From assembly GCA_023436825.1 (NCBI GenBank), contig JAEZHS010000051.1, forward strand, positions 1 through 34,369: a DNA stretch of 34,369 bases, read 5' to 3'. Origin of the DNA: Pseudomonadota bacterium (GTDB taxonomy: Bacteria; Pseudomonadota; Alphaproteobacteria; Reyranellales; Reyranellaceae). A program made the translations under genes and the position numbers. The number at the start of each line of letters is the position of its first letter. The first letter of the stretch is position 1. Under the pieces are notes generated by a model, which saw nothing but the letters and a program-made list of their open reading frames with translations, did no database searches and was not told the DNA's origin. This document shows, one piece after another, positions 1,523-3,156 of the stretch.

Positions 1523-2074
1523 TTACGCTGCTTGCGCGAGGGGCGTCGCCAGCGCCTCTTCCGCACTGAGCGTGCGGGCAACGGCGTGGACCGTCGCGGC
1601 GATGCGTACCGCAGCCTGGATCTGCTCGGGGGAAAGGCCATGCTCGCGGCAGACCTTCTCGTGCGCTTCCAGGCACATGCCGCAGCCGTTGATGGCCGAG
1701 ACCACTAGCGACCACAGTTCGAAGTCGACCTTGTCGACGCCGGGCTTGGCCATCGCGGTCATGCGCAGCTTGGCCGGCAGGGTCTTGTAGTCCGCCGCGT
1801 GCACCAGGTGCACGAAGCGATAGTAGATGTTGTTCATCGCCATCAGCGACGCCGCGATCTTGGCGGCGTTCAGCGCCTCGGGCGTGAGCTCGGCGCCGAG
1901 GGCGTCGACCACGGCCTGCGTGGTCGGCGCATGATTGGCCGCAAGCGCGGCAGCGACGAAGCTGCCGGCCTTCTGCTGCGGACTGAGAAGCTGCTCGGAC
2001 GCCAGGCTCGACAGGTTGAGCTTGAGGTCGCGGGCATACTCCGGCAGCCGGTCCTTCAGAACATCGATCGACAT
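1523..2074 (-). CDS. ahpD: Alkylhydroperoxidase AhpD
   Basis: A 183-residue AhpD-family protein. The redox site is [13 protein letters not shown], with Cys131, Cys134 and His138, and Glu119 lies in the preceding helix. This matches the Glu/Cys-x-x-Cys/His proton-relay arrangement of Mycobacterium AhpD. In that system AhpD accepts electrons from dihydrolipoamide-type donors and re-reduces the peroxiredoxin AhpC. The gene starts ten bases after the ahpC stop. Its ribosome-binding site AAGGAGG overlaps that stop codon (TAAGGAGG), so the two are translationally coupled. The function as AhpC reductase is inferred from family and adjacency; a direct peroxidase activity is also reported for the family. 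Confidence 0.95.
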
Positions 2075-2084
2075 GGTTGCCTCC

Positions 2085-2624
2085 TTATGCGGCCTTCAGG
2101 ACCTCGTCGCCCTTCTGCCAGTTGCAGGGGCAGAGCTCGTCGGTCTGCAGCGCGTCGAGCACGCGCAGCACTTCCTGCGGATTGCGGCCGACCGACAGGT
2201 CGTTCACCGACACGAAGCGGATGATGCCCTCGGGATCGACGATGAAGGTGGCGCGCAGGCAGACGCCCTCGCCCTTGTCGAGGATGCCGAGCTCCTGCGA
2301 CAGCTCGCGCTTGATGTCGGCCAGCATGGCGAACGGCAGAGCCTTGAGGTCGGCATGGTTCTGGCGCCAGGCCAGGTGCACGAACTCTGAATCGGTCGAG
2401 ACGCCGTAGACCACCGCGTCGCGCTCGGCGAAGTCCTTGTTGATCTTGCCGAAGGCGGCGATCTCGGTCGGGCAGACGAAGGTGAAGTCCTTCGGCCAGA
2501 AGAACACGACCTTCCACTTGCCGGCATCGCTCTTGTCGGACACCTGCTTGAAGGCAGTCTTCGGATCGGTGCTCACCACCGCCTTGAGGTCGAAGGAAGG
2601 AAACTTGTCGCCAATGGTCAGCAT
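2085..2624 (-). CDS. ahpC: Peroxiredoxin AhpC (AhpD-dependent type)
   Basis: A 179-residue 2-Cys peroxiredoxin that reduces hydrogen peroxide and organic hydroperoxides in the cytoplasm. The peroxidatic cysteine is Cys51 in DFTFVCPTE. The C-terminal end carries LCPCNW (Cys165 and Cys167). This Cys-Pro-Cys arrangement is that of the mycobacterial AhpC which pairs with AhpD, rather than of the enterobacterial AhpC/AhpF type, and ahpD follows directly. I chose the ATG at 2624 because GGAG precedes it and the protein then begins [11 protein letters not shown], the family N-terminus; an in-frame start at 2675 would lie upstream of the probable promoter. A palindromic operator lies 20 bases upstream, over the predicted -10 element. 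Confidence 0.95.
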
Positions 2625-2643
2625 GAAACGCTCCGTGAAATGG

Positions 2644-2660
2644 ATTAGAACGTTTCTAAT
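2644..2660. promoter_or_regulatory. Irr/Fur-superfamily operator (ICE-like palindrome) upstream of ahpC
   Basis: A perfect inverted repeat, ATTAGAA-CGT-TTCTAAT, sits 20 bases before the ahpC start. The iron control element bound by Irr in rhizobia and Brucella has the consensus TTTAGAA-N3-TTCTAAA; all twelve inner positions (TTAGAA/TTCTAA) match and only the outermost pair is swapped. It overlaps the predicted -10 hexamer, so bound protein should repress. A PerR-like member of the Fur superfamily would be an alternative binder. Confidence 0.7.
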
Positions 2661-2685
2661 ATGCTGCGCCCACATCTAATTGCAA
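2656..2685 (-). promoter_or_regulatory. Predicted sigma-70 promoter of ahpC-ahpD
   Basis: On the minus strand a TTGCAA -35 hexamer (2685-2680) is followed, after 18 bases, by TATTAG (2661-2656) as -10. The -10 lies inside the ICE-like palindrome. Predicted by eye from consensus only. Confidence 0.45.
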
Positions 2686-2699
2686 GTCATTCGCAGAAC

Positions 2700-2728
2700 T
2701 ATTTCAATGAAATAATTATTAATTATTT
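2700..2728. repeat. Two overlapping AT-rich inverted repeats upstream of the ahpC promoter
   Basis: TATTTCA-A-TGAAATA (2700-2714) overlaps AAATAATTA-T-TAATTATTT (2710-2728), two perfect dyads with one-base centres. The second covers the stop codon of the upstream VOC gene. The tract is almost pure A+T in a GC-rich genome and lies about 15 bases upstream of the ahpC -35. It could be an UP element, a second regulator site or a weak transcript end; it lacks the GC stem of a normal terminator. Confidence 0.5.
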
Positions 2729-3156
2729 TTCAATGACTTACGTTTCCGCTTAGCCGTCAGCTCGCCGTACTTCATGCCTTCCAGCTTGATGCCGTCAGGG
2801 TCGAGAAAGAACACCGCGTAGTAGTCCTCGTAATACTCGTCGGCCGGGTCGACGATCTTCACACCCTCTTCCTCCAGGAACGCCTGCAGGGCGTCGACGT
2901 CCTTCCGGTTGCGCAATTCGAATGCGTAGTGATGCAGGCCGACATCGCCGATGCTGTACTTCTGGCGGCCCTCGGCCGGCGCGATCCAGTAGCGCGTCTT
3001 GCCGTTGGTCCAGCCGATCGTGCTGGGATACTCGTCCGAGATCTCGAACCCCAGGAACTCGAACAGCCTGCCGTAGAAGGCCTTCGACCTCTCGTAGTCT
3101 TTGACGCGGATGGAAATGTGGTCGATGCCGACAACCTTACAGACAGGCTTCGCCAT
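2719..3156 (-). CDS. VOC-superfamily (glyoxalase/dioxygenase fold) protein
   Basis: A 145-residue single-domain vicinal-oxygen-chelate protein. It begins VVGIDHISIRVKDYERSKAF with the first metal-ligand histidine, has a second in GLHHYAFELRN, and ends with the Glu ligand in GIKLEGMKYGE. These are the His/His/Glu positions used to bind a divalent metal in glyoxalase I, fosfomycin-resistance enzymes and extradiol dioxygenases. The substrate is not evident. The start at 3156 has GGAGGG six bases upstream. The C-terminus is lysine/arginine-rich (KRKRKSLKNN). It precedes ahpC on the same strand but is separated from it by the AT-rich, promoter-bearing gap, so it is probably transcribed separately. 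Confidence 0.88.
   Translation of the reverse strand: MAKPVCKVVGIDHISIRVKDYERSKAFYGRLFEFLGFEISDEYPSTIGWTNGKTRYWIAPAEGRQKYSIGDVGLHHYAFELRNRKDVDALQAFLEEEGVKIVDPADEYYEDYYAVFFLDPDGIKLEGMKYGELTAKRKRKSLKNN

Follow-up and report, generated by a model that had tools for sequence, protein, structure and literature searches.

A conserved Irr-type palindrome upstream of ahpC-ahpD in Reyranella-type bacteria and its putative role in peroxide defence

We analysed a 34,369-nucleotide stretch of alphaproteobacterial DNA, referred to here as the window, together with related genomes, and found that the palindrome before ahpC-ahpD is a real, conserved feature and a putative docking site. Our main reading, to which we give a probability of about 0.76, is that this palindrome is the operator through which Irr, a Fur-family protein, would control ahpCD until relieved by peroxide and/or heme, and that a second operator, probably Fur's, accompanies it before both ahpC and the rubrerythrin linked to irr. 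Within this reading, we infer the binding of Irr, the repression, the releasing signal and the presence of Fur at the second motif from sequence comparison. Irr is best known as a heme and iron regulator of rhizobia and their kin. Here, Irr appears to fill the place of OxyR, the usual regulator of peroxide defence, and it looks more like a peroxide regulator than a heme/iron regulator, because the exact copies of its predicted box in 24 Reyranella genomes stand at peroxide genes and none stands at heme-synthesis or iron-uptake genes.

The features of the window are listed in Table 1. The palindrome is the 17-mer ATTAGAACGTTTCTAAT (ATTAGAA-CGT-TTCTAAT), which was read directly in the window, and its core, TTAGAANNNTTCTAA, ends 20 bp before the ATG of ahpC. 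The core of the alphaproteobacterial Irr box is TTAGAA-N3-TTCTAA, and the original prediction that the palindrome agrees with it at all twelve fixed positions was confirmed (12/12). With up to three mismatches to the consensus allowed, the TTAGAANNNTTCTAA core was also the only match in the window. Shuffled versions of the window contained 0.83 such matches on average, with at least one match in 58 of 100 shuffles; this control applies to matches with up to three mismatches and not to an exact copy, and the window by itself does not settle the significance of the palindrome.

Table 1. Positions in the window of ahpC, ahpD and the putative control elements before ahpC.
Feature	Position	Strand	Basis
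ahpD, 183-aa alkylhydroperoxidase	1523..2074	-	TIGR00777, 219 bits, above cut-off 192
ahpC, 179-aa peroxiredoxin, AhpC/AhpD type	2085..2624	-	family search, similarity to Reyranella
ribosome-binding site GGAG of ahpC	2631..2634	-	mean column identity 1.0 across the block, 25 aligned sequences
putative Irr-type operator	2644..2660 (core 2645-2659)	.	exact match, kept before ahpC, exact copies at peroxide-defence genes
putative -10 CATATT of ahpC	2658..2663	-	conserved columns, 16-nt spacer to -35
putative -35 TTGCAA of ahpC	2680..2685	-	conserved columns
second operator-like element TGCGAATGACTTGCA, probable Fur box over -35	2681..2695	-	column identity, same motif at iron genes

The gene names ahpC and ahpD held: AhpD exceeded the cut-off of its family model, and the window AhpC, which showed up to 99% identity to Reyranella proteins, is a member of the peroxiredoxin family, yet it did not reach the cut-off set for the classical AhpC model (NCBIfam TIGR03137, 150 bits against 272). 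We took the ATG at 2624 as the ahpC start rather than the longer open reading frame start at 2675, because this ATG and its ribosome-binding site were conserved, and because the box-to-ATG spacing varied by non-multiples of three. The claim that the palindrome covers the -10 of ahpC stood as to position, one end of the palindrome overlapping the conserved -10-like stretch CATATT, but a consensus promoter scanner made no call at this -35/-10 pair; by our count, TTGCAA/CATATT agrees with the consensus at 8 of 12 positions, and the scanner threshold is 9. A small VOC/glyoxalase-like gene, recognized by eye from its translation, occupies 2719-3156 on the same strand, with 94 bp separating its end from the ahpC start, and transcription may run through from this gene into ahpC.

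The original prediction had proposed looking for the palindrome upstream of ahpC in relatives, for irr in the genome and for other copies of the motif before iron and heme genes. For the relatives, we scored the 150 bp before the ATG in the best 80 of 501 related ahpC loci. The palindrome was present in all 27 Reyranella-type loci (L009-L031, L033, L037, L040 and L041), where it matched 10-12 of the 12 positions at a distance of 16-28 bp from the ATG. When the 80 upstream regions were dinucleotide-shuffled, at least 10 of 12 positions matched in 18 of 1,600 trials (1.1%) and 12 of 12 in a single trial of the 1,600. Upon alignment of the window with 24 Reyranella-type ahpC loci (25 sequences), the mean column identity was 0.94 for the Irr core, 0.96 for the TGCGAATGACTTGCA element and 1.0 for the ribosome-binding site, compared with 0.70 for the remaining upstream region and 0.66 for the spacer between the two elements; the TGCGAATGACTTGCA element of ahpC was thus as conserved as the Irr box. 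Some relatives with Irr have no box at ahpC. The nearest genome compared, G001, had 30% of the sampled 31-mers in common with the window.

Other copies of the motif were counted genome-wide in 24 Reyranella genomes, a set that leaves out L032 as well as the Reyranella-type genomes of L037, L040 and L041. Sites with up to one mismatch numbered 75, compared with 24 for a reversed-pattern control. All 44 exact copies precede peroxide-defence genes, namely ahpC, katG, rubrerythrin and catalase, and none of the 44 was found before heme-synthesis or iron-uptake genes, so the expected company of iron and heme genes did not appear at the exact sites. Overall, 61 of the 75 sites lie before ahpC, katG, the irr-linked rubrerythrin, the second rubrerythrin-katG pair or catalase, including 17 of the 31 one-mismatch sites. 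The catalase of locus L111, a partial open reading frame, matches catalase HPII under the cut-off. In the finished genome of the same genus, G096, only three sites with up to one mismatch were found, at catalase, between irr and rubrerythrin, and at ahpC; its sites with up to two mismatches were not above the control (10 versus 31).

The remaining 14 of the 75 sites had no peroxide gene, and all of them were one-mismatch sites. One (L139, 1501-1515) is located 43 bp before the start, at 1559 and cut by the contig end, of a probable bacterioferritin, which we take to be such from its first residues. The same site stands behind a BFD-like ferredoxin open reading frame (Pfam BFD, under the cut-off). 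Among the viewed neighbours of the other 13 sites, part of which were covered by the family search, no heme or iron-uptake gene was seen. A TTACAATTGTTCTAA-type near-match with conserved flanks, also with one mismatch, was observed behind a permease-like gene in L008, L118, L123, L129, L136 and L138 (at about base 1501); these loci showed no peroxide gene, no tRNA in the two that were scanned (L008 and L118) and no Rfam family in the four that were searched. In L122 and L126 (at about base 1501), one-mismatch Irr-type sites lie before or near the start of a CCG-domain protein. Additional one-mismatch sites were located before a Hint-domain protein (L120) and between folK (HPPK) and an NYN-domain gene (L131), and no gene link was found for those of L119, L133 and L141, the neighbours of L119 lying outside the family search.

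A wider survey covered 115 alphaproteobacterial genomes, each from a different family except for one pair. Exact boxes exceeded the reversed control in the 65 genomes with Irr (50 versus 19) and fell below it in the 50 genomes without Irr (12 versus 50). Outside the genus, 13 of 63 Irr-containing genomes had a box directly 3' of irr, which stood before rubrerythrin in 12 cases and before katG in one. By our count, 31 of the 46 exact sites in these 63 genomes belong to rubrerythrin/irr, peroxiredoxin (ahpC, 1-Cys, redoxin), katG, ferritin-like or cytochrome-peroxidase genes; the remaining 15 lie elsewhere, including at an Nfu gene and an Rrf2-type gene.

The irr gene itself was found in 23 of the 27 Reyranella-type genomes related to the window, comprising 20 of 24 Reyranella genomes, in which the protein showed at least 83% identity to the G001 copy, and all three further Reyranella-type genomes. 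The four Reyranella genomes without Irr also lack fabA, the neighbour of irr, which suggests that the absence reflects assembly gaps. In further relatives, the search for Irr covered 50 of the 56 remaining genomes (L083-L088 were left out). With the NCBIfam models, the G001 protein exceeded both Irr cut-offs (NF045678, 200.3 bits against 150; NF045677, 184.2 against 170), remained under those for PerR (PerRB, 70.7 against 250; PerRA, 60 against 200; PerRClab, 50.2 against 180; PerRTherm, 33.4 against 200) and passed no Fur cut-off. G001 encodes two further Fur-family proteins besides Irr; these reach no Irr, PerR or Fur cut-off, and Fur is their nearest model.

The PerR ligands H37, D85, H91, H93 and D104 (listed in PMC4700492, which, like the other papers cited here, was available to us in part) line up in Reyranella Irr upon alignment to Bacillus PerR (2fe3). 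All five (H, D, H, H, D) were kept in 20/20 Reyranella Irr and in 14/14 other Irr sequences, the latter being those above 90 bits in the examined loci, with L238 among them coming from the same genus (G096). The His-cluster heme site (HxH) reads HHHH in 19 of the 20 Reyranella proteins and HHQH in one. None of the 20 has a cysteine, and the heme regulatory motif (Cys-Pro) is consequently absent; this motif is a feature of only some Irr. For Irr of B. japonicum, the same five ligands have been proposed to make up a non-heme iron site at which H2O2 is activated (PMC4700492). Release of Reyranella Irr by peroxide is plausible, because the PerR-type ligands are kept and because of this proposal for B. 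japonicum.

OxyR was looked for in the same genomes. An OxyR-type gene adjoined ahpC in 0/27 Reyranella-type loci, and an OxyR query (E<=1e-45) detected none in 24 Reyranella genomes, in three of which 79 of 91-110 candidates were scored; the same query revealed an orthologue in 5/5 control genomes, one of which was the query's own. OxyR control of Reyranella-type ahpC was rejected on these two counts, and a more distant OxyR in Reyranella is possible. Among the best 80 of 501 loci, a LysR gene with the OxyR-type GHC motif lies next to ahpC in 40, and the neighbouring taxon L032 has this arrangement and no box. A strict inverse, in which a locus has either oxyR or the box, holds in part only: of the 40 loci with oxyR alongside, 10 have a palindrome of at least 10/12 within 150 bp as well, and 7 of the 40 loci without adjacent oxyR have no palindrome (Fisher p 4e-7 for the association of oxyR and box).

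The second operator-like element of ahpC was followed through the motif TGCRAATNAYTYGCA, which, with up to one mismatch, was found in four genomes at a total of 37 distinct places (forward counts of 5, 7, 10 and 5, against 0, 0, 3 and 1 for the reversed pattern). The genes behind it include hemA (5-aminolevulinate synthase), a BFD-type ferredoxin (bfd), ECF-type sigma factors that we take to be FecI-like, TonB receptors and a solute-binding protein, presumably with an iron role. The motif was also present before ahpC in all four genomes and before rubrerythrin in G096. By our count, 22 of the 37 places fit an iron, heme or peroxide role, and 15 show no fit or cannot be assigned, including those at a PNPOx-type protein (three genomes) and at an alpha/beta hydrolase (three genomes). 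At the PNPOx-type protein, the Fur-type motif lies 6-7 bp before the start in L257, L273 and L280.

A Fur-type matrix, trained on 11 sites that we picked ourselves and partly chose for their iron-gene company, detected the element before ahpC in 27/27 Reyranella-type loci, at 36-37 bp from the Irr box, weakly so in L015 and L016. At the irr-linked rubrerythrin, 20 of 21 loci (L238 and 20 others) have the element, at 18-20 bp from the Irr box, and 0/200 shuffles were as good; in six of these 20 loci the score was 13.5, barely above the 13.2 attainable by Irr boxes themselves. Before katG, the second rubrerythrin and catalase, the matrix picked out nothing beyond weak matches and the Irr box itself. 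In locus L035, where oxyR lies next to ahpC and the Irr box is absent, a Fur-type motif, TGCGAATTGTTCGCA, was observed 32 bp from the ATG. The TGCGAATGACTTGCA/TGCRAATNAYTYGCA motif is probably the Fur box of the genus Reyranella, and we infer that Fur is its likeliest binder. Since this probable Fur box and the Irr box both stand at the promoter, ahpC probably carries tandem, putative Fur and Irr operators.

In the proposed mechanism, ligand-free Irr would sit on the -10 and the expected start site and thereby block ahpCD. Peroxide, via oxidation at the five PerR-like ligands, and/or heme at the His cluster would release Irr, upon which ahpCD, katG, catalase and rubrerythrin would be switched on together, and the second operator of both ahpC and the irr-linked rubrerythrin, probably that of Fur and placed at the -35 or farther upstream, would add an iron input. 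At katG, the box is flanked by a -35-like CTTG on one side and an A+T-rich, -10-like stretch on the other, whereas at the irr-linked rubrerythrin it lies directly upstream of a conserved TTGAC. Repression is suited to ahpC and katG, because the box overlaps the -10/start region or sits between the -35-like and -10-like stretches; the position before TTGAC suits repression less well and could serve activation. According to the available part of PMC7762939, Irr represses or activates depending on the position of its site. The overlap at ahpC resembles that at R. sphaeroides mbfA, whose 5' end lies inside the Irr box (PMC3413700, in part). In the accessible portion of PMC6956336, Rhodobacter Irr gel-shifts the site TTAGAAATATTCTAGA, and the predicted Irr box at Rhodobacter iscR P2 was not bound in vitro; a box alone is therefore no proof of binding.

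We compared this reading with other explanations of the palindrome. A chance match, or a by-product of an A+T-rich promoter, would agree with the window control at up to three mismatches, which is non-significant by itself, but it is highly improbable and was rejected: the palindrome is kept in every one of the 27 loci, while the neighbouring spacer has a column identity of 0.66, shuffles seldom produced as good a match (1.1%), and the exact copies in the 24 genomes stand at peroxide-defence genes without exception (44/44). It is also improbable, though less so, that a Fur paralogue other than Irr binds TTAGAA-N3-TTCTAA, with PerR-like use of one of the two further Fur-family proteins of G001. 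Fur-family proteins do use related palindromes, which counts for this explanation; however, exact boxes rise above the control only in genomes with Irr, the box is linked to irr in 13 of 63 such genomes outside the genus, both paralogues stay below all Irr, PerR and Fur cut-offs with Fur as the nearest, and a different motif, TGCRAATNAYTYGCA, goes with the iron genes.

Irr might instead act as it does in rhizobia, as a pure heme/iron-status regulator, so that ahpCD, katG and rubrerythrin are repressed in iron scarcity and peroxide has no action on Irr. We consider this unlikely but worth serious attention. KatG, catalase and rubrerythrin need iron, as such control would lead one to expect, whereas AhpC and AhpD need none. 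The His cluster, complete in all but one of the 20 Reyranella proteins (HHQH in that one), agrees with it, as do the heme binding of Rhodobacter Irr without the heme regulatory motif (PMC3413700, in part) and the near-match before the probable bacterioferritin, a gene that is a rhizobial Irr target (PMC7762939, in part); the latter source also describes Irr as a heme sensor and not a peroxide sensor. Against it stand the 24 genomes, in none of which an exact box precedes heme-synthesis or iron-uptake genes, and the lack of a cysteine, and hence of the heme regulatory motif, in all 20 Reyranella Irr. The same evidence divides the original prediction that ahpCD is placed under a heme/iron-status regulator rather than OxyR: the Irr-type box, Irr in 23/27 genomes and OxyR in 0/24 speak for the replacement of OxyR by Irr, but the exact sites avoid the iron-uptake and heme genes. 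As to the predicted link between iron limitation and peroxide handling, a probable Fur motif lies over the ahpC -35, and the predicted targets of Irr are peroxide-defence genes; the link between iron and peroxide is one that runs via peroxide control at least as much as via heme/iron status. A bolder reading, which we advance tentatively and at somewhat less than even odds, is that Irr itself is the peroxide sensor that replaces OxyR, with a regulon essentially of peroxide defence and in tandem with Fur at ahpC and rubrerythrin; a role of Irr in peroxide defence and iron storage may be the older one in Alphaproteobacteria, and the heme/iron control of rhizobia derived. Full opening would need both metal-loaded Fur and free Irr to come off, which peroxide would bring about and an iron swing alone would not.

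No link of Irr to ahpC in Alphaproteobacteria appeared in the titles and abstracts surveyed. In the literature available to us, we met no earlier account of ahpC-ahpD under Irr, of Irr where OxyR is missing or of a Fur-Irr tandem at ahpC and rubrerythrin, although Rodionov et al. 2006 and the Magnetospirillum IrrB work may contain parts of these. Irr sites before catalase-peroxidase genes were predicted by Rodionov et al. 2006 (cited in PMC2464607), which agrees with the Irr box at katG found here; the part of that account available through PMC2464607 mentioned neither ahpC-ahpD nor the tandem Fur-type motif. In Magnetospirillum gryphiswaldense, IrrB is a similar case of a non-rhizobial Irr that affects iron/oxygen balance and oxidative-stress tolerance (Wang 2015, via PMC5459824); katG is said there to be under Fur, unlike here, and ahpC was not met in the available portion of this account. 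For more basal alphaproteobacteria, reliance on Fur has been described (PMC3751524, in part).

The known Irr regulons of Rhizobiales and Rhodobacter (mbfA, ccpA, bfr, suf) resemble the present case in having an orthologous regulator and a matching box. R. sphaeroides has Irr boxes at two genes, mbfA and ccpA; both are oxidative-stress genes too, and its irr mutant shows greater peroxide resistance (PMC3413700, in part). In contrast to these groups, the predicted Reyranella targets are ahpCD, katG, catalase and rubrerythrin, heme-synthesis and iron-uptake genes carry no exact box, and R. sphaeroides has OxyR, which was not found in the Reyranella genomes searched. The irr promoter of B. japonicum is read by both Fur and Irr, as is proposed here for ahpC, but its target is irr itself, with Irr as antirepressor, whereas the targets here would be ahpC and rubrerythrin (reference list of PMC8638967). 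If confirmed, the tandem Fur/Irr operators would provide a compact system for separating the iron input to one promoter from the peroxide input. PerR regulons of the Bacillus type have catalase and peroxiredoxin as target genes. Reyranella Irr is similar to PerR as a Fur-family protein placed over catalase and peroxiredoxin genes with the five PerR metal ligands kept, but it is an Irr orthologue by family model and has no cysteines, and therefore no Cys4 zinc site, unlike PerR. Irr and PerR are said to have target genes in common (PMC8638967, in part). If our reading is true, Irr without a detectable OxyR and with a peroxide-defence regulon would offer a natural test of direct peroxide sensing by Irr and a hint at its first role, and it would represent an alphaproteobacterial counterpart of PerR.
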